DNA of 64,000 nt from Ruegeria sp. ANG-S4. Lineage in GTDB: Bacteria; Pseudomonadota; Alphaproteobacteria; Rhodobacterales; Rhodobacteraceae. Each line of letters begins with the position of its first letter. Position 1 is the first letter of the stretch. The stretch is taken from contig NZ_JWLK01000003.1 of assembly GCF_000814005.1 (NCBI RefSeq), positions 1-64,000 on the forward strand. Reading direction: 5' to 3'. The notes under the pieces are model-generated. The model was not told where the DNA came from. It made no database searches and saw only the letters and a program-made list of their open reading frames with translations. This document shows positions 10,285 to 60,205 of this stretch, piece by piece. A program made the translations under genes and the position numbers.

Positions 10285-10312
10285 GCTATTCAGCACGCCG
10301 AGGTTTTTGACA

Positions 10313-13359: not shown

Positions 13360-14052
13360 ATGTCTATTCAAGATGCGCATATAAGCACGAAGACCAAACC
13401 GTTTCGTTCTGTCTTTCGTACAAGTAGCCCTCCAATCAACCCAGCTCTGCTATATAAAAAGGTCTTTAAGCGCCTTTTGGATATAGCGATGGTTTTGGTG
13501 ACATCGCCGATCGTTCTGCCGCTTATTGCCTTGCTTGCGGTTATGGTCGCACTGGATGGGGCCAACCCGTTTTATTGTCAGCGGCGCGTCGGTCGGAATG
13601 GCCGAATTTTCACCATGTGGAAGCTGCGTACGATGGTTCCGAATGCAAAAGCATTGCTGGATGAATATCTGGCTCAGAACATCCTGGCCCGACTAGAATG
13701 GGAACAGACCCAAAAGCTCAAGGATGATCCTCGGATCACTCCATTTGGCCAAATCCTGCGCAAAACGTCACTGGATGAGTTGCCCCAGCTCTGGAACGTT
13801 CTGATGGGCGAAATGAGCTTGGTTGGACCGCGCCCGATGATGCCCGAGCAGCAGAATCTTTATCCTGGTAAGGCCTATTTCTCACTGCGGCCTGGCTTGA
13901 CCGGCTTGTGGCAGGTGTCAGAGCGGAACGCCAGCACATTTGCAAGCCGCGCTGATTTCGACACGTCCTATGCAGAAGATCTGACTTTTAAAACAGATGT
14001 CAGCATTCTTTATGCAACGGTAGGTGTTGTCGTTCGGGCAACCGGGTACTGA
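13360..14052 (+). CDS. Undecaprenyl-phosphate sugar phosphotransferase (EPS priming enzyme)
   Basis: A 230-residue membrane enzyme of the bacterial sugar transferase family (WbaP/ExoY type). One N-terminal membrane helix (about 37-57) is followed by the catalytic core: RRVGRNGRIFTMWKLRTMV, then DPRITPFGQILRKTSLDELPQLWNVL and GEMSLVGPRP, ending in YFSLRPGLTGLWQVSERN. It moves a hexose- or deoxyhexose-1-phosphate from a nucleotide sugar to undecaprenyl phosphate, which starts repeat-unit synthesis. The ATG at 13360, with AAGG about 6 bases upstream, is chosen over a TTG at 13342. The enzyme is of the short ExoY type rather than the long five-helix WbaP type. Confidence 0.9.
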   Translation: MSIQDAHISTKTKPFRSVFRTSSPPINPALLYKKVFKRLLDIAMVLVTSPIVLPLIALLAVMVALDGANPFYCQRRVGRNGRIFTMWKLRTMVPNAKALLDEYLAQNILARLEWEQTQKLKDDPRITPFGQILRKTSLDELPQLWNVLMGEMSLVGPRPMMPEQQNLYPGKAYFSLRPGLTGLWQVSERNASTFASRADFDTSYAEDLTFKTDVSILYATVGVVVRATGY

Positions 14053-14418: not shown

Positions 14419-17400
14419 ATGGATGGTTCTACAGTGAATATTTCTGCCAGGGACGGCGACATCGCAATCGTTGGCATGGCTGCGCATTTGCCTGGCGCGT
14501 CTTCGATTGACACCTATTGGTGCAATCTGCGTGCAGGGGTGGAATCTATTCGCCAACTCAGTGGGGAGCAGCTTCTTGCGAATGGCGAAGCTCCGCATCT
14601 GCTTGAGCGGCCTGACTATGTGCCGTTTGCGGCCCCCTTGGACAGATTTGAGGAATTCGATGCCGAGTTCTTTGGCTTGTCTCCAAAAGAAGCCGCCATC
14701 ATGGACCCGCAACATCGTCAATTCCTTGAAGTCGCCTGGGAAGCGCTGGAAAATGCGGGCTATCCGCCGGAGAGTTTTCCCGGACCCATCGGGGTATTCG
14801 CCGGATGCGGCATGGGCAGCTATTTCTATTTCAACGTCTGTTCAAACCGGGATCTGGTTGATGCCGTGGGTATGTTCCTGCTGCGCCATACCGGCAATGA
14901 CAAGGACTTTCTGTCGACCCGGCTGAGCCATATCCTCGACCTCAAGGGGCCGAGCGTGAATGTGCAAACGGCGTGCTCGACCTCATTGGTTGCAGCTCAT
15001 TACGCGACACAGGCGTTGTTGACCGGTGAGTGCGATATGGCGATCGCTGGGGGTGTCACGATCGAACTCCCTCATAATAGGGGTTATGTTTACAAAGAAG
15101 GTGAGGTGCTCTCGCCAGACGGCCATTGCCACGCCTTCGATCACCGCGCGCAAGGTACGGTGTTTGGCTCAGGCGCGGGCGCTGTCATCCTGCGTCGTCT
15201 GTCTGATGCCATTGAGGATGGCGACCATATCTGGGGTGTGATCCGGGGCACCGCCATCAACAATGACGGCGCGGCCAAGGCCGGGTATCTGGCGCCATCC
15301 GTTGATGGTCAGGCTGCCGCGATTTCCGAGGCCCATGTTATGGCCGACGTGAGCCCCGATACGGTGGATTATATCGAATGCCACGGCACCGGTACCTATC
15401 TTGGAGACCCGATCGAAGTGGCCGCGCTGACGCAGGCGTTTTCGGAAACCACACAAGAGACCGGCTTTTGCCGACTGGGCTCGGTCAAAACCAATATCGG
15501 CCATCTGGATACAGCAGCCGGTGTTGCGAGCCTGATCAAAACCTCACTGGCTTTGCACCACAAGCAGATCCCGCCCAGCCTTGGATTTGAAAAGCCCAAC
15601 CCGGCGATCGATTTCGAGAACAGCCCGTTCCGGGTGAATGACACTCTGACCGATTGGGTCTCGCACAAGGGGCCGCGCCGCGCCGGGGTCAATTCTCTGG
15701 GTGTTGGCGGAACCAATGCACATGCCATTCTGGAGGAAGCGCCCGAGCGGGCTGCATCTGAGCCGTCAGATTGGCCGTTTCAAATCCTCACGGTTTCGGC
15801 GCGGGGCAAAAAGGCGCTGGATGCCAACAGCGCGGCGCTGGCCGAGCATCTGCGCGCCAATTCTAATCAGGATTTGGCCGATGTCGCCTGGACGTTGAAA
15901 AACGGGCGCCGCGGGTTTGAAAAGCGGCGTGTGATTGTCGCTGAAACCCATGAGGAAGCCGCCGCGATCCTTGAGGAAAACGATCCGCGCAGGGTGTTCA
16001 CGCATTCGGTGATCTCGGAAACTCCCGAGCATGTGTTCATGTTCCCCGGTGGCGGGGCACAATATGCGGGTATGGCGCGGGATCTCTATGAAACCGAACC
16101 GGTCTTTGCCGAATGGATGGATCGGGGTCTGGATATCCTGCAAGCCAAGCTCGACTATGATATCCGCGCGATCTGGCTGCCTGAGCCGGGGCAGGAAGAG
16201 GCCGCAGGTGAACGGTTGAAGACCCCCTCAGTGCAGCTACCACTGATAATGATCACCGAATATGCGCTGGCGCAGCTCTGGATGGGATGGGGCGTTCAGC
16301 CCACCGCTCTGGTCGGTCATTCGATGGGCGAAAACACCGCCGCTTGCGTGGCGGGCGTGATGTCGTTTGAGGATTGCATCGGTCTGGTGCATCTGCGCGG
16401 GCGTCTGTTTGACACGGTGCCCGCTGGCGGCATGCTGAGTGTCCCCCTGCCCGCCGACGATCTGAGACCGCTGCTAGGAGACGCGCTTGATCTGGGTGCC
16501 GTCAACGCCCCCAGCCTGAGCGTCGCAACCGGACCGCAGGCGGCACTGGACGATCTGGAGGAACGCCTGCGCAATCAAGGTGTCGATTGTCAGCGCATCC
16601 CGATTGATATCGCCGCGCATTCGCGGATGCTGGAGCCGATCCTGCAGGAATTCGGCGATTATCTGCGCTCGATTGACCTGCAGGCGCCACAGATCCCCTT
16701 CCCCTCGAACCGCAGCGGCGACTGGATCACCGAGGCTGATGCCACGAATCCGGACTACTGGGTCGGCCATCTGCGCAACACTGTTCATTTCGCCGATTGC
16801 ATCACCACACTGGCCGAAAACCCCGAGCGCATCTTCATCGAAGTTGGTCCCGGCAAAGCGCTGGCTTCGCTGACCGGGCAGCATGACAAGGTGGACGCCA
16901 ATCAAGTGATCAGCAGCCTGCGGCATCCGAATGATGACGTGGCTGACGATGCTTATTTCATGGCCATGCTGGGCCGTATCTGGGCCTTGGGCGGCACGTT
17001 TGACTGGGAACAGATCTGGGGCGAGGCGCGTCGTAACCGGGTGCCTCTGCCTACCTATGCTTTCCAGCGCTCGCCCTATTTCATCGAACCCGGTAAGACA
17101 CAGGTGGAGACGGCCAGCCAATGGCTGATGCGCACCGAAGATACCGCCGATTGGGGCTATCGCGTCGCCTGGACGCCGAAATACGCGGCCTGCGATGTCG
17201 ATGTCACCGGAGACCTGTCGGAGGCGGCACAGGAAAGCTGGCTGATCTTTGCGGATGAGGCCGGGCTTTGCAACAAGCTGACCGAGCGTCTGAAACAGGC
17301 CGGTCATAAGGTGGTGACGGTCACGCCCGGCGATGCCTTTGCACGCATCAGCGAGGATCACTATCAACTGGCCCCTGAACGCGGGCGCGAAAGCTATGAT

Positions 17401-20400
17401 GCGCTGATCCGCGATCTGGTCGCGCAGGAACGTATCCCAACCCGGATCGTACATGGCTGGCTGCTGACCCAGGCCGAGACCTTCCGCCCCGGCGGCAGCT
17501 TCTTCCACCGCAATCTGGAACAGGGCTTTTACAGCCTGTTCTTCCTGGCGCAGGCCATCGGGGATGAAGATCTGCCGATGCCTCTGCATCTCCATGTCCT
17601 CAGCTCGGGCGCGTTGCAGGTCCGGGATGAGGCCTTGCCCTACCCGGAAAAAGCAACCGTGACCGGCCCGACCCGCGTTATCCCGCGCGAATTCCCCGGC
17701 CTCACCTGTGCGCTGCTGGATATCGACCTGCCGCAAAGCTCGGGCAAACGCCGCGCGCCTGCCCTGCCCGACGGCCTGACCGATCAGGTGCTCGAAGACC
17801 TGATAGCCCCGCCTGCCTCGTTCACGGCGGCGATTCGCGCGGGCAAACGGTTTGAACAGGGATACCGCCCGCAGGCCCTGGCAGAGCCGTCTCTGGATGA
17901 CCTGCCATTGCGCGATGGCGGTACTTATCTGATCACCGGGGGTTTTGGCGGCATTGGCCTGACACTGGCCGAGGCGCTGATTACCAAAGTGAATGCCAAT
18001 ATTGTCCTGCTTGCACGCGGAGACCTGCCGCCGCGTGATCAGTGGGAAAACGTCCTGAACAACTCGGCCCCGCAAGACAGAACGGCCCGCCGCATCCGCG
18101 CCATTGAAAAGCTTGAAGCTGCAGGCGGTAAGGTCCTGCCGATGTCGGTCGATGTCAGCAACGTTGAGGAGATGCGCCAATGCGTTGAAAGCGCGACACA
18201 GGAATTCGGCCAGATCAACGGTGTGATCCATGCGGCTGGCCTGATCGACGATGCGCCGATCATGACCAAGACCATGATGGAGATCGAGGACGTCTTTACG
18301 CCCAAAATTCACGGTACGCAGGTCATCAACCAGATTTTCTCCGACGGATCGCTGGATTGGCTGGTTCTGTTCTCGTCTACCTCGACGGCAACAGCCCCTG
18401 TGGGTCAGGTCGATTATGTGGCCGCCAATGACTATCTGAATGCTTATGCCCGTGCCCGCGCCGGTGACAAAACGCAGGTTCTGTCGGTCAATTGGGGCAT
18501 CTGGGCTGATGTTGGCATGGCCGCCGACGCGATGGAGGCCCGGACCGGATCCGCTGAGCCCGCGCCCGTCACTTCGGCAGATGTGCCAATGCTGGATCAG
18601 GCAACATTCGATGACACCGGAAACCGCCTGCTCTGTGCGACCTATAACGCCCATGATCGATGGTTCCTTAACGATCACCGGACCAAGGCCGGTCACGCTC
18701 TGGTGCCCGGCACCGGCTATCTGGAACTGGCGTCTGAGGCGCTGCGGGTACAGGGCGAAACCGGCCCGTTTGAAATCCGTGATCTGTATTTCCTGCGCCC
18801 CCTTGCGGTGTCGGACAATGAAGATCAGCAGATCCGCCTGCGCTTGCCACGCAGCGATGTCGGCTATGATCTGACGGTTGAGAGCGGATCGGATGACACG
18901 TTCGAACTGAACACACAGGCCAGCCTGTCGCTGCTTCCACTGATCGCACCCGCACCGCTGGATATGGCGGCCATCGCCAGCCGTTGTGGCCCGGCCCATC
19001 AGGCCGAAGGCGCAGGGCGCTTGCGGTCCCTGCAGGAGGCGCATCTGAATTTCGGCCCGCGCTGGCGGGTGCTGACCTCGACCGCGCTGGGGCAGGATGA
19101 AGGTCTCGCTCATCTGGCCCTGCCCGAGGGCCTGCAGTCGGATATCGAGGCAGGCTATCACCTGCACCCTGCCCTGATGGATCTGGCGACGGGATGGGCG
19201 ATGGAGTTGATCGCTGGATATCAGGCTTCTCACCTGTGGGTGCCGGTCTCGTACCGGTCCGTGCGTGTATATGCTCCGCTGCCGGCGCAGATCGTCAGTT
19301 GGGTCCGCAATGCTGACGACAACCGTGCTGAAGGCGAAACTGCCAGTTTCGATGTCACCATCGCCGCACCCGACGGTACGGTCTGCATCGAGGTCGAAGG
19401 CTTCTCGATCCGCCGGATGGAGAATGCGGTGGACTTCGCCTTTACCGAAACCACTCCGGCGGTCACCTCCGAGGTGGACACGCCGCCACCCCTGTCCCCG
19501 GCCGAGGAACGTCTGCGGCACAACCTGTCACAGGGCATTCCGGCATCGGAAGGGCCTGCTTTGTTCTTCAAGGCGCTAACCAGCGGACAATCGCAGATCA
19601 TCCTGTCCTCGCTTGATCTGGAGGGGCTGATTGCACAGGCTGCCGACAGCGGAGCCTCCACCGAAAGCTCGGATCAGAAATTCCAGCGGCCCGAACTGGA
19701 TTCTGACTATGTCGCACCTGAAAACGATATCGAACGCCGTCTTGCCGGGTTCTGGCAGGAGCTTCTGGGCGTGGATGAAATTGGCGTCGAAGACAGTTTC
19801 TTCGATCTGGGCGGTCACTCCCTGATCGCTGTCCGGCTGTTCGCGCAGATCCGTAAAGCCTATAACGTGGACTTCCCGATTTCGGTTCTGTTCGAGGCTC
19901 CGACCATCCGCAAATGCGCCGATCTCATCGCTGCCAGAGGCGTGCCGAAAGACGGCGGGGAAGATACCCCTGCCGAGTCGGCACCGTCCACACCGGAACG
20001 TCGCTTTACCCATCTGGTGCCGATGCATTCCGGCGAAGGCGGGCCCAAGACACCCTTCTTCCTGGTGGCGGGCATGTTTGGCAACGTGCTGAACCTGCGC
20101 CATCTGGCACATCTGGTCGGGACCAACCGGCCATTCTACGGCCTGCAGGCCCGCGGTCTTTATGGGGATGAGGAACCGCATCGTGATCTGCGCGAGGCGG
20201 CCAAGGATTACATCGCTGAAATGCGGCGGGTTCAACCCACTGGGCCCTACATGCTCGGCGGATTCTCGGGCGGCGGGATTACGGCTTATGAAATTGCGCG
20301 CCAACTGACCGAAGCTGGCGAGGAAATCGCCGCGCTTGTGATGTTGGACACGCCGCTGCCGGTACGCCATCCGCTCAGCAAAGCGGATCGCTTGAAGATC

Positions 20401-20862
20401 CAGTTCCAGGAGATGCGCAGCAAAGGTGCCAGGTACCCGATTCAATGGGCCAAGAACCGGATCGCATGGGAAATTCAAAAACGTCAGCCCAAGGAAGAAA
20501 CGTCCGAAACCGGGCAGCAATTCCACGACACCGAGATCGAGGCCGCCTTCATGGAAAGCGTCAACAGCTATCCCTTGCACCCATGGGACGGGCCTCTGAC
20601 CCTTTTCCGCCCGCCTTTGGTCGGGAAATGGGAGCTTGGACTGGGCAAGCTGGTGCATCACGAGCGCTATTATTTGACCCATGACAATGACTGGACGCCC
20701 TGGGCCCCTAATATCGAAGTATTCGAAGTGCCCGGAGATCATGACTCGATGGTTCTTGAGCCAAATGTGCGGGTGCTGGCGGCCCAGATGAAATCCTGTC
20801 TGGAAAACGCAGAGCGCCAGATTGCACGGCCACATCCCATGATACAGGAAGCGGCGGAATAG
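14419..20862 (+). CDS. Type I modular polyketide synthase, KS-AT-KR-DH-ACP-TE
   Basis: A 2147-residue single-module synthase. The ketosynthase (about 13-440) has Cys186 in TACSTS, His322 in ECHGTGT and His362 in NIGHLDT. The acyltransferase (about 535-850) has the FPGGGAQY opening and Ser635 in GHSMGE. The ketoreductase has its NADPH loop at 1173-1180 (TGGFGGIG) and Tyr1333 in VDYVAAND. A double-hotdog dehydratase has His1420 (H-x4-G-x4-P, one residue longer than the usual spacing) and Asp1588 in HPALMD. The carrier protein has Ser1801 in DLGGHSL. A thioesterase has Ser1950 in GGFSGGG and a late GDHDS. No enoylreductase is seen, so the predicted product of one cycle is an alpha,beta-unsaturated acyl group released by the thioesterase. 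It is the first gene of a tight operon; GT2 starts 2 bp after its stop. Confidence 0.9.
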   Translation: MDGSTVNISARDGDIAIVGMAAHLPGASSIDTYWCNLRAGVESIRQLSGEQLLANGEAPHLLERPDYVPFAAPLDRFEEFDAEFFGLSPKEAAIMDPQHRQFLEVAWEALENAGYPPESFPGPIGVFAGCGMGSYFYFNVCSNRDLVDAVGMFLLRHTGNDKDFLSTRLSHILDLKGPSVNVQTACSTSLVAAHYATQALLTGECDMAIAGGVTIELPHNRGYVYKEGEVLSPDGHCHAFDHRAQGTVFGSGAGAVILRRLSDAIEDGDHIWGVIRGTAINNDGAAKAGYLAPSVDGQAAAISEAHVMADVSPDTVDYIECHGTGTYLGDPIEVAALTQAFSETTQETGFCRLGSVKTNIGHLDTAAGVASLIKTSLALHHKQIPPSLGFEKPNPAIDFENSPFRVNDTLTDWVSHKGPRRAGVNSLGVGGTNAHAILEEAPERAASEPSDWPFQILTVSARGKKALDANSAALAEHLRANSNQDLADVAWTLKNGRRGFEKRRVIVAETHEEAAAILEENDPRRVFTHSVISETPEHVFMFPGGGAQYAGMARDLYETEPVFAEWMDRGLDILQAKLDYDIRAIWLPEPGQEEAAGERLKTPSVQLPLIMITEYALAQLWMGWGVQPTALVGHSMGENTAACVAGVMSFEDCIGLVHLRGRLFDTVPAGGMLSVPLPADDLRPLLGDALDLGAVNAPSLSVATGPQAALDDLEERLRNQGVDCQRIPIDIAAHSRMLEPILQEFGDYLRSIDLQAPQIPFPSNRSGDWITEADATNPDYWVGHLRNTVHFADCITTLAENPERIFIEVGPGKALASLTGQHDKVDANQVISSLRHPNDDVADDAYFMAMLGRIWALGGTFDWEQIWGEARRNRVPLPTYAFQRSPYFIEPGKTQVETASQWLMRTEDTADWGYRVAWTPKYAACDVDVTGDLSEAAQESWLIFADEAGLCNKLTERLKQAGHKVVTVTPGDAFARISEDHYQLAPERGRESYDALIRDLVAQERIPTRIVHGWLLTQAETFRPGGSFFHRNLEQGFYSLFFLAQAIGDEDLPMPLHLHVLSSGALQVRDEALPYPEKATVTGPTRVIPREFPGLTCALLDIDLPQSSGKRRAPALPDGLTDQVLEDLIAPPASFTAAIRAGKRFEQGYRPQALAEPSLDDLPLRDGGTYLITGGFGGIGLTLAEALITKVNANIVLLARGDLPPRDQWENVLNNSAPQDRTARRIRAIEKLEAAGGKVLPMSVDVSNVEEMRQCVESATQEFGQINGVIHAAGLIDDAPIMTKTMMEIEDVFTPKIHGTQVINQIFSDGSLDWLVLFSSTSTATAPVGQVDYVAANDYLNAYARARAGDKTQVLSVNWGIWADVGMAADAMEARTGSAEPAPVTSADVPMLDQATFDDTGNRLLCATYNAHDRWFLNDHRTKAGHALVPGTGYLELASEALRVQGETGPFEIRDLYFLRPLAVSDNEDQQIRLRLPRSDVGYDLTVESGSDDTFELNTQASLSLLPLIAPAPLDMAAIASRCGPAHQAEGAGRLRSLQEAHLNFGPRWRVLTSTALGQDEGLAHLALPEGLQSDIEAGYHLHPALMDLATGWAMELIAGYQASHLWVPVSYRSVRVYAPLPAQIVSWVRNADDNRAEGETASFDVTIAAPDGTVCIEVEGFSIRRMENAVDFAFTETTPAVTSEVDTPPPLSPAEERLRHNLSQGIPASEGPALFFKALTSGQSQIILSSLDLEGLIAQAADSGASTESSDQKFQRPELDSDYVAPENDIERRLAGFWQELLGVDEIGVEDSFFDLGGHSLIAVRLFAQIRKAYNVDFPISVLFEAPTIRKCADLIAARGVPKDGGEDTPAESAPSTPERRFTHLVPMHSGEGGPKTPFFLVAGMFGNVLNLRHLAHLVGTNRPFYGLQARGLYGDEEPHRDLREAAKDYIAEMRRVQPTGPYMLGGFSGGGITAYEIARQLTEAGEEIAALVMLDTPLPVRHPLSKADRLKIQFQEMRSKGARYPIQWAKNRIAWEIQKRQPKEETSETGQQFHDTEIEAAFMESVNSYPLHPWDGPLTLFRPPLVGKWELGLGKLVHHERYYLTHDNDWTPWAPNIEVFEVPGDHDSMVLEPNVRVLAAQMKSCLENAERQIARPHPMIQEAAE

Positions 20863-20864
20863 CC

Positions 20865-21875
20865 ATGTCTGAGCCCAAACTTCTGACGGTCATCCTGAAC
20901 TACAAGACGCCGGACATGACCTTGCGCTCGATCGAGGCCGCAAGGCAGGCTATGGACGGCATCGCCGGAGAGATCATCGTTGTGGACAATGACTCACGGG
21001 ATGGTTCTTTCGACGCCATTTCAGCGCATGTTCAGGATCAGGGCTGGGATGAAAACAACCATGTTCGGGTCATCCAGTCGGGCCATAATGGCGGGTTTGG
21101 CGCGGGCAACAACGTGGGCATCCGGGCAGGTCTGTCGGATGGCACGCAGCCAAACTATGTCTACATCCTGAACTCCGACGCCTTTCCGGCCGAGAATGCA
21201 ATCCGGTTGCTGCTGGAACATCTGGAAACCGCACCCGAGGCGGGCTTTGCCGGCAGCTATATCTATGGCGACGACGGTGACCCGCACCTGACCAGCTTTC
21301 GTTTCCCTTCGATTGCAAGTGAATTTGAAAGCGGTATCAACTTTGGCCCTGTTACACGGCTGTTCAAAAACCGGATCGTGCCTATTCCCATCCCGTCCGA
21401 AACCCGCCCGGTCGACTGGCTGGCCGGGGCCAGCCTGCTTATGCGGCAGCGCGTACTGGATGAAATCGGCCTGTTTGACGAGCGGTTCTTTCTGTATTTC
21501 GAGGAAACCGATCTGTGCCGCCGGGCCACCCTGGCCGGATACCGGACCGACTATGTGCGCCCCAGCGAGGTTATGCATATCGGCTCCGTTTCAACCGGCA
21601 TGAAAACATGGCAGCGCGTGCCAACTTATTGGTTTGATTCCCGCCTGCATTATTTCGTCAAAAACCACGGAGCGTTTTATGCCGCCTGCGCCACGTGCGT
21701 GCATTTGATAGGTGGCTTTCTGCATTGGCTGCGTTGCCTGATCACGCGCAAGCGCAGCGGTGTTCCCCCCCATTTTTTGCGTACCTTGGCCTGGCATGAC
21801 CTGACTGCCTGCATGCGCGCGATTTTTCGCAACCGCAAGCAGGACAATTTGCCCAAGCCTGTTATTGGAGAGTAA
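20865..21875 (+). CDS. Glycosyltransferase family 2, rhamnosyltransferase-like
   Basis: A 336-residue GT-A enzyme. It has the GT2 start LLTVILNYKTPDMTLRSI, the donor-binding IIVVDNDSRDGS, the GGFGAGNNVG segment and the NSDAFP metal motif, then FDERFFLYFEETDLCRR with the catalytic ED pair. This pattern is that of the WbbL/RfbN-like rhamnosyltransferase branch. It sits between the PKS and NRPS genes with gaps of 2 bp on each side, so it is co-translated with them. It may glycosylate the PKS/NRPS product, with dTDP-rhamnose from the nearby rfb operon as a plausible donor, or it may be a polysaccharide enzyme captured in the operon. Confidence 0.82.
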   Translation: MSEPKLLTVILNYKTPDMTLRSIEAARQAMDGIAGEIIVVDNDSRDGSFDAISAHVQDQGWDENNHVRVIQSGHNGGFGAGNNVGIRAGLSDGTQPNYVYILNSDAFPAENAIRLLLEHLETAPEAGFAGSYIYGDDGDPHLTSFRFPSIASEFESGINFGPVTRLFKNRIVPIPIPSETRPVDWLAGASLLMRQRVLDEIGLFDERFFLYFEETDLCRRATLAGYRTDYVRPSEVMHIGSVSTGMKTWQRVPTYWFDSRLHYFVKNHGAFYAACATCVHLIGGFLHWLRCLITRKRSGVPPHFLRTLAWHDLTACMRAIFRNRKQDNLPKPVIGE

Positions 21876-21877
21876 CG

Positions 21878-24800
21878 ATGTCGTTCAGCACATTTCTTGC
21901 CGGCCATGAATCCCTTGTCATTCAATGCGGGGAAATGCTGTTGGAGGAGGGGCACAGCATTCAGGGCGTTGCCACTCGCAACAAGGATGTCGAGACATGG
22001 GCCAAATCGCATGAACTGCCCCTCCATGCGCCCGGTCGGGACTTGCCGGACCGGATCGAAGGGGTGTCATTTGATTGGCTGCTCAGCATCGCCAATCTGG
22101 ACCTGTTGCCGCAGACTTTGCTGGACAAGGCCGAAAAGGGTGCTGTCAATTTTCACGACGGTCCCCTGCCCCGCTATGCCGGTCTGAATGCCCCGGTCTG
22201 GGCGATTCTGAATGGTGAGGCACAGCACGGGATTACCTGGCATATGATTTCGGGTGGGGTGGATGAAGGCGGCATCGTTGCCCAGAACCTGTTCGACATC
22301 AGCAGTACCGAAACCGCTCTGACCCTGAACACCAAATGCTATGCAGCAGCCATCGACAGTTTTGGCGATGTGATCCGGGCGCTGGAGGCGGATCAGCCCC
22401 CTGCCCCACAGGACCTGTCGCAGCGCAGTTATTTCGCCAAGAACGACCGCCCCGAGGCCGCGGCCCGGCTGGATTTCGCAAAACCGGCGCATGAACTGGT
22501 CGCACTGGTCCGGGCGCTGGATCATGGGGATTATTGGAACCCGCTCTGCCGACCAAAGGTTGAGCGCGATGGGCAGATCTGGCTGGTCGGCGCGGCCAAG
22601 GTGAGCGATCAGCAATCCGATGCCGCCCCCGGCACCATTCTTGCCAGCAGCCCCGAGAGTGTGACCATTGCTACCGGTGAGGGTGCGATCGAGATCGGCG
22701 ATCTGCGCAACGGTCTGGGTGCGCCTGTACCGACCGATGGCATTTTGAACGGCGGCAGCGCCCTGCCCTCGCTGGCTGCGGAACAGGCGGCTTCGATTGG
22801 TCGGGCCATCGCTGACGCGCTTCCAGCCGAGCCGGAATGGCGCGCCCATCTTGAGGCGCTGCAATCCGTTGAAATTCCCCTGATCAACGCATCGGCACCT
22901 TCCGGCGCACCACGATCGCAGCCATTGCATATGCCGGCGGGCCTTGCCGGCGCCACAGCCAAGGCGGCATTGGCCGCCCTCATGGCACGTCTCGGGGATG
23001 CCTTCACCCTTGACCTGGCACTGCGTCTGAACGAGTCGACGTCGCCCTACCTCAACAGCTGGGTTCCGGTGCGCTTTGACGCCGAACAGACGTTTTCGAA
23101 CGCGCAGGAGAGTTTTGCTCAGACCATCGCGCAGGCCCATGAGCTGGGTCCGTTTGCTGCTGACCTCCCCGCACGCCTGCCCGGTGCGGCACCCTTGCAA
23201 ACACCTGTGGTCGGTCTGTCCGATGACGTATCAGCCGGGCTGATCCCGGGCACAAGCCTGACGCTGGCCACCTCCGGCGAGCAGGCGGTATTGTTTGCCG
23301 ACAGCGGACATATTTCCGAGGCCGCTCTGCACCTCTTTGCTGCACGGATCGAAAGCCTGCTCGTCTCTCTTTCCGACCCGGCCACAATGGGCCTGCCTGT
23401 TGCAGAGCTTTCCATTCTGCCCGAGACGGAACGCGCGCAGATCCTGCAGGACTGGAACAACACGGTCATCGCCTATGACGAAATCGCCTGTGTTCACCAG
23501 CAGTTCGAAGCCCAGGTCGAACGCACCCCGGACGCACCTGCGCTGGTCTTCGAAAACCTCAGCTTTTCCTATGCCGAGCTGAATGCCCTGGCCAATCAGG
23601 TTGCCCATGTCCTGCGTGAGATGGGGGTCGGCCCCGATACGCTTGTGGGGCTGCATGTCAAACGCTCTCCGCTGTTGCTGATCGGGGCGTTGGGGATTCT
23701 GAAGGCGGGCGGGGCTTATGTGCCGATGGACCCGGCCTACCCGGCCGACCGGACGGCTCTGTATCTTGAGGACAGTGGTGCAAAGGTCGTGCTGACGGAA
23801 TCCGCGCTGGCGCAGGACCTGCCCGATCATGGCGCGCAAGCTTTGCTGCTGGACACAGATGAACGGCTGGGAGCAGCCGCGACCGGCAACGTGGACATCG
23901 GCGTGACCTCGGCCAACCTGGCTTATCTGATCTATACCTCGGGCTCGACCGGACGGCCCAAGGGTGTCATGGTCGAACACCGCAACGTGTCAAACTTCTT
24001 CACCGGCATGGACGACCGCATCACCCACGATCCGGCGAGCGTCTGGCTAGCGGTGACCAGCCTGTCTTTCGACATCTCGGTGCTTGAGCTGTTCTGGACG
24101 CTGGCGCGCGGCTTCAAGATCGTTCTCAGCGATGACGAAAACCGCGCCTTGGTGGCCGGAGACACTGCCCCCGGACAATCCATCACCGGCAAGGGAATGG
24201 AATTCAGCCTGTTCTATTGGGGCAATGATGATGGCGTTGGCCGGGACAAGTACAAGCTGCTGCTTGAGGGTGCAAAATTTGCCGACAAGAACGGGTTCTG
24301 TGCCGTCTGGACGCCCGAGCGTCATTTCCACGCCTTTGGCGGCCCCTACCCCAACCCGTCGGTCACCGGAGCCGCTGTGGCCGCTGTGACCGAGAATATC
24401 GGGGTACGCGCGGGCAGCTGCGTCGCGCCGCTGCATCACACGGCACGCATTGCCGAGGAATGGGCGGTGATCGACAATCTGACCAATGGGCGCGCGGCCC
24501 TGGCCATCGCGTCCGGCTGGCAGCCGGATGATTTTGTCCTTAAACCCGAGAACACACCCCCGGAAAACAAACCCGCCATGCTAGAGGCAATCGGAACGCT
24601 GCGCCGGCTCTGGGCCGGGGAAACGGTGGAATTTCCAACCAAATCCGGCGAGATGCATGGCGTTGTCACGCAACCGCGCCCGGTCTCCAAGACCTTGCCC
24701 GTCTGGGTTACGACGGCTGGCAACCCCGATACCTGGCGCGAGGCCGGTGCCATCGGGGCCAATGTTCTGACCCACCTGCTGGGGCAAAGCGTTCAGGAAG

Positions 24801-26497
24801 TTGCCGACAAGATCACCATCTATCAGACGGCCCTGCGCGAGGCGGGTCATGACCCGGATGACCACAAGGTTACCCTGATGCTGCACACCTTTGTCGGAGA
24901 AGACCGCGAAGACGTGCGCGAGATTGCGCGTGAGCCGATGAAGGATTACCTGCGCTCGGCCGCCGGGCTGATCAAGCAATATGCCTGGGCTTTCCCGGCC
25001 TTCAAGAAACCGCAAGGCGTGTCGAACCCGTTCCAGCTGGACCTTGGCAGCCTGTCTGACGAGGAAATGGAAGGTATCCTCGATTTCGCCTTCCTGCGGT
25101 ATTTCGAGGATTCCGGCCTGTTCGGCACGGTCGAAGATTGCCTGAACAGGGTGGAGGAACTGAAACGGATCGGCGTTGATGAGATTGCCTGCCTGATCGA
25201 CTATGGCATCTCGGTGGATCAGGTGATGGAGGGGCTGAAACCTCTGGCCGAGGTTCTGCGGCGTTCAAATCAGGATGTCGGGTTGGCCGAGGATGACTTC
25301 TCGATCGCGGCCCAGATCATCCGCCACAAGGTCAGCCACATGCAATGCACCCCCAGCATGGCACAGATGATCCTCATGAATGACGAGGCGCGGTTTGTGC
25401 TGTCCAAGGTCAATCACATGATGATCGGTGGGGAAGCCCTGCCCGGATCGCTGGTGAAACAGATCAACAAGCTTTCTCCGTCCCATATTGAAAACATGTA
25501 CGGGCCCACGGAAACGACCATCTGGTCCACGACCGAAACCGCCGCGCCCGTGGACGGCGTGGTCAATGTCGGAACCCCGATCGCAAATACGCAGGTCTAT
25601 GTGCTGGATGACGACAAAAACCCAGTCCCCATTGGCGTGGCCGGAGAGCTTTACATCGGCGGCGCGGGCGTGACCCGTGGCTACTGGCAGCGCGAAGACC
25701 TGACAGCCGAGCGCTTCGTCCCCGATCCGTTCTCGGACACGCCCGGCGCAAGACTTTATCGCACCGGGGATCTGGTACGCTGGCGCACAGACGGACGGCT
25801 CGATTTCCTGGGCCGTGCGGATCACCAGATCAAGCTGCGCGGCTACCGTATCGAGCTTGGCGAGATCGAGAGCCTAATCGACGCGCAATCCGGCGTGCGG
25901 CAGTCGGTTGTCATCGCACGGGAAGACACGCCAGGTCTGGTGCAACTGGCGGCCTATATGACGGCCGACCAACCGGTGGACGACAAGGTGCTGCGTCAGA
26001 CCCTATCTGCTCAATTGCCGGAATACATGGTGCCCACGCATTTCATGACGCTGGACAGTTTCCCGCTGACGCCTAACCGCAAAGTCGACCGCAAGGCCCT
26101 GCCCGCCCCGATCGTTCAGAAGCCGCGTGTTGCGGCGTCTGCATCTGCTCCGGCTTCCGGCGATTCAGCCACGCAGAAGATTGCAGCGATCTGGTCGCAA
26201 ATTCTGGGGGTTTCCGACATCAGCGGGCGGGATAATTTCTTTGATCTAGGCGGGCATTCCTTGCTGGCCGTTCAAGTCCATCGAGAAATCCGCAAAGAGC
26301 TGAACGTGCCCGGTCTCAGCATCACCGATATCTTTCGGTTCCCGACCTTGGCAGGCCTGGCCGAAACCGTCGACAAGAAAACCGGGTCGAAACCGGTCGA
26401 GGACAAGGCTGCTCAGCCGTCCCCGGAAAAGGCCGGTCGGCGCAGCGATGCCATGGCCCGACGCCGCGAAATGCGGGCCCGCAGACGGACAGCGTGA
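21878..26497 (+). CDS. NRPS: formyltransferase, degenerate C, adenylation split by luciferase-like monooxygenase, PCP
   Basis: A 1539-residue protein. Residues 1-230 resemble methionyl-tRNA formyltransferase, with Asn91, His93 and Asp129 at the same spacing (2 and 36) as the Fmt catalytic triad. Residues about 280-560 look like part of a condensation domain but lack HHxxxDG. The adenylation domain starts near 565, with A3 (YTSGSTGRPKG) near 686 and A4 SFDIS. It is then interrupted by a flavin-dependent luciferase-like monooxygenase at about 774-1130 (MEFSLFYWGNDD, VWTPERHFHAFGG). The domain resumes to A5 NMYGPTETT (about 1206) and A7/A8 (YRTGDLVR, RGYRIELGEIE). A carrier domain follows with Ser1461 in DLGGHSL. 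My reading of the pocket is D-I-L-Q-M-G-M-I-W-K, close to known glycine codes. Similar A-monooxygenase fusions are known (MupA/Atu3671 family; MtaG-like). No thioesterase is present. Confidence 0.9.
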   Translation: MSFSTFLAGHESLVIQCGEMLLEEGHSIQGVATRNKDVETWAKSHELPLHAPGRDLPDRIEGVSFDWLLSIANLDLLPQTLLDKAEKGAVNFHDGPLPRYAGLNAPVWAILNGEAQHGITWHMISGGVDEGGIVAQNLFDISSTETALTLNTKCYAAAIDSFGDVIRALEADQPPAPQDLSQRSYFAKNDRPEAAARLDFAKPAHELVALVRALDHGDYWNPLCRPKVERDGQIWLVGAAKVSDQQSDAAPGTILASSPESVTIATGEGAIEIGDLRNGLGAPVPTDGILNGGSALPSLAAEQAASIGRAIADALPAEPEWRAHLEALQSVEIPLINASAPSGAPRSQPLHMPAGLAGATAKAALAALMARLGDAFTLDLALRLNESTSPYLNSWVPVRFDAEQTFSNAQESFAQTIAQAHELGPFAADLPARLPGAAPLQTPVVGLSDDVSAGLIPGTSLTLATSGEQAVLFADSGHISEAALHLFAARIESLLVSLSDPATMGLPVAELSILPETERAQILQDWNNTVIAYDEIACVHQQFEAQVERTPDAPALVFENLSFSYAELNALANQVAHVLREMGVGPDTLVGLHVKRSPLLLIGALGILKAGGAYVPMDPAYPADRTALYLEDSGAKVVLTESALAQDLPDHGAQALLLDTDERLGAAATGNVDIGVTSANLAYLIYTSGSTGRPKGVMVEHRNVSNFFTGMDDRITHDPASVWLAVTSLSFDISVLELFWTLARGFKIVLSDDENRALVAGDTAPGQSITGKGMEFSLFYWGNDDGVGRDKYKLLLEGAKFADKNGFCAVWTPERHFHAFGGPYPNPSVTGAAVAAVTENIGVRAGSCVAPLHHTARIAEEWAVIDNLTNGRAALAIASGWQPDDFVLKPENTPPENKPAMLEAIGTLRRLWAGETVEFPTKSGEMHGVVTQPRPVSKTLPVWVTTAGNPDTWREAGAIGANVLTHLLGQSVQEVADKITIYQTALREAGHDPDDHKVTLMLHTFVGEDREDVREIAREPMKDYLRSAAGLIKQYAWAFPAFKKPQGVSNPFQLDLGSLSDEEMEGILDFAFLRYFEDSGLFGTVEDCLNRVEELKRIGVDEIACLIDYGISVDQVMEGLKPLAEVLRRSNQDVGLAEDDFSIAAQIIRHKVSHMQCTPSMAQMILMNDEARFVLSKVNHMMIGGEALPGSLVKQINKLSPSHIENMYGPTETTIWSTTETAAPVDGVVNVGTPIANTQVYVLDDDKNPVPIGVAGELYIGGAGVTRGYWQREDLTAERFVPDPFSDTPGARLYRTGDLVRWRTDGRLDFLGRADHQIKLRGYRIELGEIESLIDAQSGVRQSVVIAREDTPGLVQLAAYMTADQPVDDKVLRQTLSAQLPEYMVPTHFMTLDSFPLTPNRKVDRKALPAPIVQKPRVAASASAPASGDSATQKIAAIWSQILGVSDISGRDNFFDLGGHSLLAVQVHREIRKELNVPGLSITDIFRFPTLAGLAETVDKKTGSKPVEDKAAQPSPEKAGRRSDAMARRREMRARRRTA

Positions 26498-27207
26498 ACA
26501 GGTTTGTGTTGATAAAGGCCGAGCTTAAACAAGATACTCGAGCCCCCAATATTGGTATTGGCGTGACCAATCCCAAGGCCTCAGAAGACACGCTACGGCC
26601 CGAAGAAATGCCCTCGATGGTGCGCGCTGTGGAAAAGTGCACGTTGGAATTTACATCGGGCCGCGTCGCCGCGCGCCAGGCGATGTTAGATATGGGCCAC
26701 GCACCCAAAGCCGTACTGATGGCCCCGGATTGCAGCCCGATCTGGTCGGATTGTCTGGTGGTATCAACTACATATAGTGATGACGTCTGCATTGCAGTCG
26801 TGACCCAGAGCAGTTCCGGGCGCAGCGTCGGTATCGACATCGAGCCCGGAACACCGTTGGACCCCGACCTCGAAGATGTCATCTGCCCCCCCTCTGAGCG
26901 GGCGTGGTTGGACGCGCACTGCGAAGAGCGATGCGGGCACCTAGCTAAGCAGGTCTTTTGCATGAAAGAAAGTTTCTACAAGGCGCTTTACCCACTGACT
27001 GGTCAGGTTCTTAGGCTTGAGGAGGTGGAAGTCAGACTACCGTTTCAGAACATCACAGGCTTTATTCTAAAATCTAGTGATCGTGCCGAAGTCCTACCTA
27101 TCGAAACCAGACTAGGCGCCGTTGCGCATAGTGTTTCCATTTATGCAAGCCTTACGGAAATATCCTGTCCATTCGTTCATAGCACGGCCCCTAATTATGA
27201 AGATTAA
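26494..27207 (+). CDS. 4'-phosphopantetheinyl transferase (EntD/Sfp-type)
   Basis: A 237-residue enzyme that activates carrier domains by transferring phosphopantetheine from coenzyme A to their serine. The two family motifs are visible: VGIDIEP with the metal aspartate and glutamate, and FCMKESFYKALYP matching the W/F-x-x-KE-x-x-K core, in the EntD-like arrangement. The gene begins with GTG at 26494, overlapping the NRPS stop by 4 bp (GTGA), so translation is coupled. A dedicated transferase in the operon implies that Ser1801 of the PKS and Ser1461 of the NRPS are its targets, and that the carrier domains are meant to be active. Confidence 0.9.
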   Translation: MNRFVLIKAELKQDTRAPNIGIGVTNPKASEDTLRPEEMPSMVRAVEKCTLEFTSGRVAARQAMLDMGHAPKAVLMAPDCSPIWSDCLVVSTTYSDDVCIAVVTQSSSGRSVGIDIEPGTPLDPDLEDVICPPSERAWLDAHCEERCGHLAKQVFCMKESFYKALYPLTGQVLRLEEVEVRLPFQNITGFILKSSDRAEVLPIETRLGAVAHSVSIYASLTEISCPFVHSTAPNYED

Positions 27208-28132
27208 ACGCTACATTCCCGCTTTTGCCCTGCTTGCCATAGCCACCGTTGTTGGGCTGGCACGGCTGGGATCAACCAAACCCATGGAGGCCGAAGCCTT
27301 TGATGCCCTCTATGACCTGCCGGCCCCTGCCCCGACCAAACCGCAGAGTGTTTTTCATCTTGGGCACAGCCTTGTGGGGCCCGACATGCCGGCCATGCTG
27401 ACGCAGCTTGCCGGAAAAGACCACGATTACAGCAGTCAACTGGGGTGGGGAACGCCGCTGAAAGCCCATTGGGAACCAGAAGAAACGATCAATGGGTTCG
27501 AGCTTAGAAATTCACCCTCGGACTACGCGGATGCCCAGGAAGCAATCGCCACCGGAGATTACAACACCCTGATCCTGACCGAGATGGTCGAAATCCGGGC
27601 TGCCATCAAATATTTCGACAGCGCAAAATACCTGCATGAATGGGTCCAGCTCGGCAGGCAGTCCAATCCGGATATGCGTGTCTACCTTTACGAAACATGG
27701 CATTCGCTAGACGGTGAAGAAGACTGGCTGGAACGGCTGGACAAGGATTTGGAGCGTTATTGGGAAACAGAAATTCTACGGCGTGCTCTGGCCCACGAAG
27801 ATAACCCGCAACCTGTCTATGTCATCCCCGCCGGTCAAGTTATGTCGCAGTTCGTAAAAGAGATTGAACGGCGCGACGGTGTTGGCTCAATCTCGGGTCG
27901 CAGGGATCTGTTTTCTGACGATATCCACCTCAACGACTACGGTACCTATCTGGTTGCTCTGACCCACTATGCCGTACTCTATCAAAAATCACCGGTTGGG
28001 CTGCCGCATGAGTTGAGCAAGGCCGACGGGACACCTGCAGCCGACCCCGGACCAACGGCTGCCCAACTGATGCAGGAAACAGTCTGGGATGTGGTGAAAT
28101 CATACAGACGGACCGGTGTGTCCCAAGACTGA
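27197..28132 (+). CDS. SGNH/GDSL-like hydrolase, membrane anchored
   Basis: A 311-residue protein starting at ATG 27197 and overlapping the transferase gene by 11 bp. An N-terminal hydrophobic segment (about 6-22) would be a signal or membrane anchor. The mature part opens with FHLGHSLVG, which has the G-x-S of an SGNH block I, and later has DDIHLNDYG, a D-x-x-H pair as in block V. Such folds act as esterases or as O-acyl transfer or removal enzymes on polysaccharides. As the last gene of the PKS/NRPS operon it may transfer or hydrolyse the acyl product in the periplasm, which is inference. A GTG/TTG start upstream at 27122 would add 25 residues and is less likely. Confidence 0.65.
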   Translation: MKIKRYIPAFALLAIATVVGLARLGSTKPMEAEAFDALYDLPAPAPTKPQSVFHLGHSLVGPDMPAMLTQLAGKDHDYSSQLGWGTPLKAHWEPEETINGFELRNSPSDYADAQEAIATGDYNTLILTEMVEIRAAIKYFDSAKYLHEWVQLGRQSNPDMRVYLYETWHSLDGEEDWLERLDKDLERYWETEILRRALAHEDNPQPVYVIPAGQVMSQFVKEIERRDGVGSISGRRDLFSDDIHLNDYGTYLVALTHYAVLYQKSPVGLPHELSKADGTPAADPGPTAAQLMQETVWDVVKSYRRTGVSQD

Positions 28133-28230: not shown

Positions 28231-29097
28231 TCAATCCAACAAGTTTGTCAGATACGCGCCATATGTGGACTTGGCGAACAGTCGGATCCGCTCTTCCAGG
28301 GCCGCATCATCAATCCAACCGTTTTCCCAGGCAATCTCGTCTAGGCTGCCGGTTTGCATGCCTTGCCGGTCTGTCAGCGTACGCACGAAATTCCCTGCAT
28401 CCAGCAGCGACCCATGCGTACCAGTATCTAGCCAGGCAAAGCCACGACCCATGGTCTGAACATTCAGCAGATCTTCGTTCAGATACATCTCAAGCAATGA
28501 CGTGATCTCAAGCTCGCCACGTTCTGACGGCTGAACCTGACGGGCACGGGCCGGGGCATCCCCGTTTAGGAAATAAAGCCCTGTCACCGCGTAGTTTGAG
28601 GGTGGCTCTTTTGGCTTTTCAATGATACCGCGTACTTTCTGACCTTCGAAATCGACCACGCCATAGCGTTCAGGATCAGCGACGCGATAGGCAAATACGG
28701 TGCCACCGTCCTCTTGCGCATCTGCGGTACGCAGCAAATCCGGCAGACCATGGCCAAAGAAGATATTGTCACCCAGGATCATCGCGGACGGAGCACCCGC
28801 AAGGAAGTCCTCGGCCAAAATATAAGCCTGCGCCAGCCCGTCAGGCGATGGCTGAGTAATCCAAGTGAGCGACAGGCCGTACTGGCTGCCGTCACCCAAC
28901 AGACGCTGAAACTGATCCTGATCCTGTGGCGTCGTGATAATCGCGATCTCGCGGATGTTGGAGAGCATGAGGACGCTGAGCGGATAAAAGATCATCGGCT
29001 TGTCGTAGATCGGCAACAGCTGTTTTGAGACCGCCATGGTGATCGGATAAAGCCGAGTGCCGGACCCACCGGCAAGAATAATACCTTTGCGCTGCAT
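28231..29097 (-). CDS. rfbA: Glucose-1-phosphate thymidylyltransferase
   Basis: A 288-residue enzyme, the usual length for RmlA. It makes dTDP-glucose from dTTP and glucose 1-phosphate, the first step to dTDP-L-rhamnose. The nucleotide-binding signature GIILAGGSGTRLYPIT stands at the N-terminus, followed by KQLLPIYDKPMIFYPLS and LGDNIFFGHGL, and the metal/sugar region EKPKEPPSNYAVTGLYF. It is the last of the four rfb genes on the minus strand, 18 bp after rfbD, and is convergent with the SGNH-like gene. Confidence 0.96.
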   Translation of the reverse strand: MQRKGIILAGGSGTRLYPITMAVSKQLLPIYDKPMIFYPLSVLMLSNIREIAIITTPQDQDQFQRLLGDGSQYGLSLTWITQPSPDGLAQAYILAEDFLAGAPSAMILGDNIFFGHGLPDLLRTADAQEDGGTVFAYRVADPERYGVVDFEGQKVRGIIEKPKEPPSNYAVTGLYFLNGDAPARARQVQPSERGELEITSLLEMYLNEDLLNVQTMGRGFAWLDTGTHGSLLDAGNFVRTLTDRQGMQTGSLDEIAWENGWIDDAALEERIRLFAKSTYGAYLTNLLD

Positions 29098-29115
29098 GAT
29101 CTGTCCTTTCAGGAT

Positions 29116-29979
29116 TCAGCCGCTCGCGACCTTCAATTCAGCCAATACATTGGCCAGACCGATTTTCCAGTCGGGCCGGGTAATTTCGAAGATATCTTTA
29201 AGCCGCGAACACTCCAGACGCGAATTCAGGGGTCTGGGGGCTGGGGTCGGGTAGTCTTTTGTTGGAATGTCTTCGATCTGTGTTGTCAGGCCCGCCTGAG
29301 AGACGATTTCGCGCGCGAAACCTGCCCAACTGACGTCTGGAGCACCGGAATAGTGAAACAGGCCGCCTTCGGCCTGCCGTCCGGTTTTAGCTATGGCTAG
29401 CAACGTGTCAGCTATATCGGCCGCCGGGGTCGGCCCCCCGATCTGATCCGCTATGATGGTCAGCACGTCTCGGGTCTCGGCCAGCCTCAGGATGGTTTTG
29501 ACAAAGTTATGGCCATGCGCTGAAAACACCCAGCTTGTCCGCAGGATCGCAAACCACCCCCCTGCCTGGGCGATCTGTTGCTCTCCCTCCAGCTTGGTCT
29601 GACCGTAAACTCCCAACGGGCTGGCTGGGTCCAGCGGCATTCGGGGATCATCCCCTGTCCCGTCAAAAACATAATCGGTCGAGATATGCAGGAAGGGCAA
29701 ACCTCTTTCTGCTGCGGCGCATGCCATGGCACCTGGCGTATCGCCATTGATCACCTGAGCCAGTTCGGCCTCATCTTCGGCCTTGTCGACCTTCGTATAG
29801 GCCGCGGCATTGATGATCACATCGGTGTCCATGTTTCTGATAGCGTCAGCACAACTCTGCGGATCAGACAGGTCCGCTTGGGAGCGATCCAGCGCCTCAA
29901 TCGTGATGCCATGCGCTGACGCACGTCTGCGCAGTTCCGTGGCCACCTGCCCATTATGGCCGAAGATCAGTGCCTTCAT
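29116..29979 (-). CDS. rfbD: dTDP-4-dehydrorhamnose reductase
   Basis: A 287-residue short-chain-type reductase catalysing the last step to dTDP-L-rhamnose with NAD(P)H. It has the nucleotide-binding loop [12 protein letters not shown], the segment ISTDYVFDG (catalytic Thr), and [10 protein letters not shown] with the Tyr and Lys of the YxxxK pair. Its ATG overlaps the stop of rfbB by 4 bp, so the genes are coupled. Confidence 0.95.
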
Positions 29980-39413: not shown

Positions 39414-39507
39414 CTTTAGGGTGGGCGTCAATAAAACCACGAAAAAGATTCGGGCAGATCAGGGGCAGAGATATGGGCTGGAGCGTTTCAGTTCAGAGTG
39501 ATTTTTG

Positions 39508-45099: not shown

Positions 45100-45110
45100 A
45101 AGGAACTCTT

Positions 45111-55325: not shown

Positions 55326-55462
55326 CCGAAAGCACTTGCTATAATAAAATCCATATCCTCTTTGATGACCGAGCCACAATCATATGTCCAGAATGGTTAC
55401 AAAACTTATGAATCCTGACGACGTGCGGATGCACCTCAATAGGTTTTGAGTATAGCGATTTT

Positions 55463-59968: not shown

Positions 59969-60205
59969 AGCATCCGTAAGAGGTGGCCGCGGAAAATCGA
60001 CCCCGTGTTTAAGTTGAATCGCATGACGAAAGATACAATTCAGAATGGCCGGAAGAAAGCAACAATCATCTGACCTCTAAGCGAAGGTCGCATCTCGGAA
60101 GCTATTGTAGGAATTTAGGTAATCTGTTTTGTAACAGAGTGTTCTAAGTGGCTTGGCTTGGAAGGTTGCTGCCCACATGTCCGGGGCCCAAGTGTTGGAG
60201 TTGAA

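Follow-up and report, generated by a model that had tools for sequence, protein, structure and literature searches.

A polyketide synthase/nonribosomal peptide synthetase operon in polysaccharide loci of Ruegeria and its relatives as a probable decoration module

Results

The first 64,000 nucleotides of contig NZ_JWLK01000003.1 of Ruegeria sp. ANG-S4 (the whole stretch analysed, hereafter the window) carry, at positions 14419-28132 of the plus strand, a five-gene operon encoding a type I polyketide synthase (PKS), a family 2 glycosyltransferase (GT2), a nonribosomal peptide synthetase (NRPS), a 4'-phosphopantetheinyl transferase (PPTase) and an SGNH-like protein. This operon is probably a decoration module of a Wzx/Wzy-type surface polysaccharide. 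Sequence comparison establishes its parts, the conservation of its catalytic residues, a glycine-type specificity code, its location in polysaccharide loci and its co-inheritance with a WaaL/Wzy-like protein. The proposed role in decoration draws on this co-location and co-inheritance, on a structural model resembling WaaL, on a sulfotransferase that occupies the corresponding slot in related loci, on the persistence of exopolysaccharide (EPS) partners under varied gene order and on the predicted enzymology. A preliminary description of the window had suggested a product attached to, or made along with, the polysaccharide; that suggestion is supported by the data below, and the earlier interpretation as a whole is partly so.

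Operon layout and catalytic domains

As judged from the open reading frames (ORFs), the genes are separated, in order, by a 2-bp gap, a second 2-bp gap, a 4-bp overlap and a short overlap, which confirms the compact layout described previously, as well as the position of the operon between an upstream Bac_transf priming sugar transferase and downstream rfb genes on the minus strand. The arrangement is not due to chance, since the PKS-GT2-NRPS order recurs in scores of loci and the catalytic residues that were checked are conserved. The operon comprises the following features:

14419..20862, plus strand: type I PKS, 2147 aa, with the Pfam domains ketosynthase (KS, 14458-15732), acyltransferase (AT, 16033-16875), ketoreductase (KR, 17920-18510), dehydratase (DH, 18586-19431), acyl carrier protein (ACP, 19738-19929) and thioesterase (TE, 20098-20862)
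20865..21875, plus strand: gt2A, the GT2 gene lying between those for PKS and NRPS, 336 aa (Glycos_transf_2, PF00535)
21878..26497, plus strand: NRPS, 1539 aa, with a formyltransferase (F) domain (Formyl_trans_N and Formyl_trans_C, 22073-22753), a condensation (C) domain remnant between F and A, an adenylation (A) domain split into two AMP-binding pieces (N-part 23504-24145, C-part 25292-26083) and a peptidyl carrier protein (PCP; PP-binding, 26174-26368)
24203-25255, plus strand: luciferase-like monooxygenase within the NRPS (TIGR04020)
26494..27207, plus strand: PPTase, 237 aa (4PPT_N, PF17837, and ACPS, PF01648)
27197..28132, plus strand: SGNH-like protein with an N-terminal membrane segment, 311 aa; the frame is open from 27122, and the in-frame ATG at 27197, overlapping the PPTase gene by 11 bp, is the preferred start

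The monooxygenase within the A domain of the NRPS is a feature absent from the preliminary description. It matches TIGR04020 (MupA/Atu3671 luciferase-like monooxygenases) over NRPS residues 776-1126 with 484.5 bits against a cut-off of 244.45, has PuwE (6ket) as its closest solved relative, and interrupts the A domain between the SFDIS (A4) and NMYGPTE (A5) motifs. The specificity code of the A domain in the window is DILQMGMIWK. Across 86 NRPS homologues the code was identical in 50, DILQLGMIWK in 22 and DILQFGMIWK in nine, with one or two variable-position differences in the other five and with D, I, L, Q, G, M, W and K invariant throughout. With the ten positions placed by the usual numbering, the code reads as one of glycine type; the best solved A-domain matches by sequence are 5u89 and LgrA module 2, both presumably glycine-activating. 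The F-domain residues N91, H93 and D129, which we take to be its catalytic Asn, His and Asp, are retained in 85 of 86 rows, as is the PCP serine, the exception being a gap in each case. No condensation family is found among the Pfam matches of the NRPS, which from residue 471 on aligns with the C-A linker region of LgrA. Without a working condensation domain, the NRPS should only start a chain, and its F domain may transfer a formyl group onto the PCP-bound amino acid, as in formylating starter modules. A formyl-aminoacyl product, among those guessed at earlier, fits this set of domains.

In the PKS, the KS Cys/His/His, AT Ser, KR Ser-Tyr-Asn, DH His and Asp, ACP Ser and TE Ser residues are invariant in all 79 homologues, and the TE His is present in 78, with a gap in the remaining row. 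The KR cofactor motif is variable in a few homologues (one glycine is Ala in six and another is Asp in two), and KR may therefore be weak in them. The Pfam matches of the PKS include no separate enoyl reductase domain. Its closest solved KS-AT structures are 8xjy and 8xjz, the latter additionally containing a peptide synthetase. Sequence searches at E-values of 0.01 and 1 returned no solved relatives of the GT2 or the SGNH-like protein, and the SGNH label is based on motifs identified by eye and on a DUF4886 match under the cut-off (20.3 versus 26.7 bits).

Co-location with polysaccharide genes

Among 72,556 plasmids, 17 records match at least 80% of the NRPS. Nine of these were examined, of which seven are annotated and two (L012 and L015) are not. 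The PKS is next to or close to the NRPS in all seven annotated records, and glycosyltransferase, flippase, sugar transferase or polysaccharide export genes surround the operon in six, the exception being Aliiroseovarius L014. The closest plasmid record is a 787-kb Ruegeria conchae plasmid, with 83.4% identity over 89% of the operon. Relatives occur beyond the roseobacters, on Paracoccus, Shinella, Aminobacter, Rhizobium and Methylobacterium plasmids and on a Hydrogenophaga contig (L022), and are not limited to plasmids, being present on megabase-size contigs such as L033 too. A class-wide survey at an E-value of 1e-250 found the NRPS in 7 of 385 genomes, five of them in the family of the window, so that in this sample the form rarely occurs outside the order.

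For a comparison of neighbourhoods, the window, the nine plasmids and 80 genome contigs (the 80 best of the 568 relatives in the matched stretches) were assembled into 90 loci, and their open frames, obtained with a crude ORF caller, were clustered de novo into network communities. The NRPS cluster is present in 86 loci and the PKS cluster in 85, both being found together in 81. Further clusters include Wzz-like (40 loci), WaaL/Wzy-like (cluster 8, 37 loci) and Bac_transf (15 loci) proteins. At least one of 15 EPS-type clusters occurs in 82 loci and at least three in 63, numbers that are descriptive because the clusters were defined on these same loci. Gene order varies among loci, with the PKS divergent from the NRPS in L010-L012, yet the EPS partners stay. 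In some loci the ORF caller returned a minus-strand shadow frame that concealed gt2A; the count to use is therefore that of a six-frame hidden Markov model (HMM) search, which located gt2A in 82 of 89 fetched loci. The 20 recurrent annotated neighbour clusters contain no exporter except Wzx and no regulator, receptor or resistance gene.

Co-location was quantified in 30 NRPS-carrying genomes of the order, picked from the high scorers among 124 carriers and mostly represented by long contigs. In 28 of these 30 genomes the NRPS has a PF13440 (Wzx) gene within 20 kb, where copy number and genome size would predict 0.46 (46 matches in total; within 10 kb in 21), and in 22 it has a Bac_transf gene at that distance, where 0.81 would be predicted (81 matches in total; within 10 kb in eight). 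The data thus point away from an operon found alone in many genomes with no link to EPS genes, the distribution that the preliminary description had named as contrary to its suggestion. Of the two further associations proposed there, that with the priming transferase holds, whereas that with dTDP-rhamnose genes does not: rfb genes are present in only five of the 90 loci (within the flanks, about 10 kb per side for contigs). On this count a general dTDP-rhamnose link of the operon was rejected, and a rhamnosylated lipid is unsupported as a general product.

Co-inheritance with a WaaL/Wzy-like protein

A full-length NRPS (at least 1595 bits) is encoded by 124 of 292 genomes of the order; these carriers include contig-edge pieces in G202, G230 and G272, and G140 was counted as a non-carrier although it presents an A1 match at an E-value of 6.5e-61. 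The multi-pass WaaL/Wzy-like protein of cluster 8, searched for with alignment A2, is present in 158 of the 292 genomes, comprising all 124 carriers and 34 of the 168 non-carriers (Fisher 3e-51, uncorrected for kinship). At 540 bits or more it is found in 103 carriers and one non-carrier (G140), with 21 carriers below that score. The proteins of non-carriers are mostly of a lower-scoring form; A2 derives from 16 loci, all of carriers, and non-carrier proteins therefore score lower by construction. The NRPS and WaaL/Wzy-like genes lie within 40 kb of each other on one contig in 105 of the 124 carriers and apart in the genome in 18, the place in G230 not being listed. Within the genus of the window (54 genomes), ten NRPS matches comprise eight of the main type (at least 2280 bits) and two diverged ones (about 1600 bits; G698 and G703), and the WaaL/Wzy-like protein is present in all eight main-type genomes and in none of the other 46. 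Such a patchy pattern inside one genus reduces, without removing, the concern over kinship.

The cluster 8 protein has no Pfam family. A predicted model of one family member (mean predicted local distance difference test score, pLDDT, 82) gave no Foldseek match at an E-value of 0.001; in VIA-align, the WaaL O-antigen ligase 7tpg_B ranked first (Z 17.1, 337 residues, 4.9 Å), followed by FtsW (8.4) and RodA (8.1). The model fits a protein of the WaaL/Wzy/SEDS group, putatively a polymerase or ligase.

A sulfotransferase in the corresponding slot

Loci were also fetched for 27 of the 34 non-carriers with a WaaL/Wzy-like protein, the other seven having no listed place. A gt2A homologue is present in 20 of these 27 loci. 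In 13 of the 27 a sulfotransferase directly adjoins GT2c, another GT2 of the conserved locus, and in 12 of those 13 it adjoins gt2A as well; in a further locus, L109, it is farther off. Its identity was determined through PF00685 for four proteins and, for the rest, through an HMM built from those four non-carrier proteins. The same HMM identified none in 89 PKS/NRPS loci (Fisher 4e-10), a result from which an unrelated sulfotransferase would escape. In a 75-leaf tree, with a random subsample of carriers and with GT2c and a further GT2 of the locus (GT2b) as sole outgroups, the gt2A proteins of carriers and non-carriers group apart from GT2b and GT2c (support 0.664) and are thus probably the same enzyme. 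We read this pattern as a single decoration position that receives either sulfate or the PKS/NRPS product and that in some strains receives neither.

Predicted biosynthetic route

The PPTase is likely to arm both carriers, ACP and PCP. The A domain would then load glycine onto the PCP, the F domain would formylate its nitrogen and the monooxygenase would hydroxylate its alpha carbon. The KS of the PKS may accept the resulting N-formyl-(alpha-hydroxy)glycyl unit, with one malonyl unit being added and then processed through KR reduction and DH dehydration. The TE would release the short unsaturated acyl group or pass it, either itself or through an unseen partner, to a sugar handled by the neighbouring GT2, and acylation would precede both flipping by Wzx and the joining of repeats by the polymerase. 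A relative of the same polysaccharide would have a sulfotransferase in place of the PKS/NRPS module.

Precedents exist for several of these steps. In conglobatin biosynthesis, the F-A-PCP starter of CongA is predicted to load glycine and to pass N-formylglycine to a PKS (PMC4504003). A flavin monooxygenase in a glycine A domain has been linked to alpha-hydroxylation in solanimycin, myxothiazol and melithiazol, and the oxygenase of the latter two is inserted between a4 and a5, with cleavage following (PMC10204066). In the necroximes, a glycine start and an oxygenase lead to an oxime (PMC7318616). On these precedents, a C4 acyl group derived from N-formyl-alpha-hydroxyglycine and one malonyl unit appears the most likely product. 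With low confidence we predict a 4-formamido-4-hydroxybut-2-enoyl group (C5H7NO4 as the free acid; +127.03 Da for each ester or amide), which could be converted to 4-oxobut-2-enoyl (+82.0 Da) by loss of formamide. An oxime, as in necroxime, is a possible alternative, and an N-hydroxy-N-formyl hydroxamate, from the combination of formyl group and oxygenase, a chemical alternative only. An oxazole like that of conglobatin finds no CongE/OzmP-like gene among the five operon genes, to which this search was confined. A bolder proposal, which we hold to be unlikely but not negligible, is that the assembly line writes a reactive unsaturated acyl bearing an N-acyl hemiaminal or aldehyde on the repeats of a widespread marine surface polysaccharide, giving a self-cross-linking or surface-binding coat, and that lineages exchange it for sulfate on one and the same sugar.

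Alternative explanations

Several observations weigh against a role in decoration. No conserved, dedicated acyltransferase to the sugar was found, and the TE may simply hydrolyse its product. The PPTase and SGNH-like clusters are present in 52 and 26 of the 90 loci, eight loci have none of the 15 EPS-type clusters (a count without chance control), and G076 and G077 lack a PF13440 gene up to 30 kb from the NRPS. In 14 of the 27 non-carrier loci (13 with none found, plus L109) a sulfotransferase beside GT2c is missing. The WaaL/Wzy-like protein is absent from G698 and G703, and in the genome of the window its gene is on a separate 5.9-kb contig (L096 1-5899, G000 contig C4). Six of the eight carriers in the genus have it on the NRPS contig, up to about 265 kb away; the two genes may therefore share a plasmid, and hitchhiking may explain part of their match. 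Diverged NRPSs of the same architecture occur in G698, G703 and Aliiroseovarius L014, where the gene adjoins a 9-kb NRPS/PKS without sugar genes, with the exosortase XrtD further on, so that this architecture also exists outside polysaccharide loci; the diverged protein, of the order F-A-luciferase-like monooxygenase-PCP (L014 15007-28746; G698:C29:77452; G703:C130:15945), perhaps belongs to a separate system. Among solved structures, the F domain is nearer by sequence to the sugar N-formyltransferase ArnA (73 bits) than to LgrA (23 bits). Lastly, a TolC-family gene lies near the operon in L010 and a type I secretion pair in L011.

These secretion genes, each near a single locus, would suit a free secreted small molecule (a signal, a siderophore-like compound or an antibiotic) whose genes are mere passengers of the polysaccharide locus, which is how an antiSMASH-style analysis would read a hybrid NRPS/PKS. 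So would the intact TE and the occurrence of the diverged NRPS without the WaaL/Wzy-like protein, and clusters of this kind in relatives have been listed as biosynthetic gene clusters (BGCs) for secondary metabolites (PMC10608839, PMC4062626). We nonetheless regard this explanation as improbable, given the WaaL/Wzy-like protein in every carrier, the persistence of EPS neighbours under several gene orders, the 20 annotated recurrent neighbour clusters with Wzx as sole exporter and no receptor or resistance gene, and the sulfotransferase swap. The swap likewise suits a decoration and not an anchor. It is very doubtful, then, that the PKS makes a lipid or anchor for building or holding the polysaccharide, with the NRPS adding a link, as has been proposed for the Sinorhizobium rkp genes: a PKS with a TE does reside inside a polysaccharide locus, and a single-module PKS could act iteratively, but the locus has its own Bac_transf and Wzx, indicative of an undecaprenyl-type route, and, as the Pfam matches include neither a condensation family for the NRPS nor a separate enoyl reductase for the PKS, an iterative product would be a polyene. 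There is also a slim chance that the operon serves two independent decorations, with the F domain acting on an amino sugar, or the NRPS yielding plain N-formylglycine, and the PKS supplying a separate acyl group. The similarity of the F domain to ArnA agrees with this, as do the DegT aminotransferase of the window and the Gfo/Idh genes of related loci; the joining of F, A and PCP in one chain and the joint occurrence of PKS and NRPS argue against it.

Surroundings of the operon in the window

Other polysaccharide genes in the window, and a plasmid marker, with the number of loci (out of 90) where the cluster was counted, are:

8866..10284, plus strand: Wzx flippase (PF13440; cluster 5, 43 loci)
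10307..11506, plus strand: GT4 glycosyltransferase
13342..14052, plus strand: Bac_transf priming sugar transferase (PF02397), upstream neighbour of the operon
28231..31582, minus strand: dTDP-rhamnose operon rfbA, D, B, C, a local neighbour and not a conserved partner
39505-40521: RPA replication initiator, a plasmid marker
43543..45099, plus strand: Wzz-like chain-length protein (PF02706)
45096..45956, plus strand: ParA/tyrosine-kinase-like ATPase adjoining Wzz, probably BY-kinase-like (cluster 12, 24 loci)
54558..55379, minus strand: WecG/TagA/CpsF glycosyltransferase (PF03808; cluster 10, 30 loci)
55463..56347, plus strand: GT2b glycosyltransferase of the conserved locus (cluster 6, 41 loci)
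60158..61468, plus strand: GT4a glycosyltransferase of the conserved locus (cluster 4, 43 loci)
61670..62707, plus strand: GT2c glycosyltransferase of the conserved locus (cluster 9, 36 loci)

The window also contains ParA/ParB-like partition genes, with ParB_N matching under the cut-off only. The co-occurrence of the rfb operon and an RPA-family initiator resembles that in roseobacter biofilm (rhamnose) plasmids, which we take to be a family with an rfb operon on a RepA-type plasmid.

Further genes were noted in their own right. Positions 49044-52937 encode a UbiA/HAD protein, a GtrA-like protein, a DprE1-like FAD oxidase (391.5 bits, cut-off 500) and a DprE2-like SDR (196.8 bits, cut-off 250). 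Together they are a candidate for a mycobacterial-type pathway to an arabinofuranose donor on the same plasmid; a similar set is present in L008. A 659-aa DUF6077 protein flanked by glycosyltransferases (57989-59968) could be a membrane glycosyltransferase, although this is a guess. The VPLPA-CTERM exosortase XrtD (6232-7815; 622.7 bits, cut-off 400) lies beside polysaccharide genes, and L007 and L014 likewise have an annotated copy close to the locus. Cluster 13 (e.g. L028 2-2386), near the operon in 19 of the 90 loci, is a large protein with a weak RTX-repeat match (20.5 bits, cut-off 23), perhaps a secreted polysaccharide-active protein. The contig L096 also holds an acyltransferase-like ORF and a long SGNH-containing ORF whose SGNH part resembles, by eye, the SGNH gene of the operon.

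Discussion

Clusters of this type have been surveyed as cryptic secondary metabolite clusters, and they are present in about four in ten sampled genomes of the order (124/292), always with a WaaL/Wzy-like protein. A hybrid NRPS-like/T1PKS cluster listed as a BGC in Rhodoalgimonas, Marimonas, Lentibacter and Aquicoccus (PMC10608839) very likely corresponds to these same genes, Aquicoccus porphyridii L1 8-17 being locus L024 and a Lentibacter metagenome-assembled genome locus L035; the accessible part of that report makes no link to polysaccharide, to which the genes are tied here. PKS and NRPS genes have likewise been reported in Phaeobacter, with no polysaccharide link in the part of the source available (PMC4062626); in Phaeobacter inhibens T5 they lie two locus tags apart (Inhi_1972 and Inhi_1974) and presumably represent this operon. 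Unusual N-acyl groups are known from the glycans of marine bacteria (PMC3210612), and no title among the matches listed in searches of the open-licence literature concerned a PKS/NRPS-decorated polysaccharide. If the operon is a decoration module, some of the hybrid NRPS/PKS clusters that have been counted in marine Rhodobacterales would be surface or biofilm parts, not chemical weapons, and the sulfotransferase swap would offer a handle on differences in charge and stickiness among marine surface glycans. Should the acyl group be reactive, as in the bolder proposal, natural-product machinery would be the source of a new class of glycan decoration.

Several known systems share elements with the proposed module. 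An F-A-PCP arrangement is common to the operon NRPS and to formylating starters such as LgrA and CongA/OzmO of conglobatin and oxazolomycin, from which the NRPS described here differs in the monooxygenase within its A domain, in the lack of a CongE/OzmP-type gene among the five genes and in its polysaccharide locus. A monooxygenase in a glycine A domain is found in SolF of solanimycin and in the myxothiazol and melithiazol modules (which we take to be MtaG and MelG), the latter two having it at the same a4-a5 site; these three assembly lines make free natural products, unlike the decoration proposed here. In the Dlt system, which D-alanylates teichoic acid, the acyl group of a surface polymer likewise comes from an NRPS-like adenylation enzyme working with a carrier protein. 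There, a single amino acid is moved by a dedicated membrane acyltransferase, whereas here an NRPS-PKS line would build the group. The RkpA region of the Sinorhizobium K antigen, believed to serve a lipid, resembles the operon, by description only, in placing synthase-type enzymes in a capsule locus.

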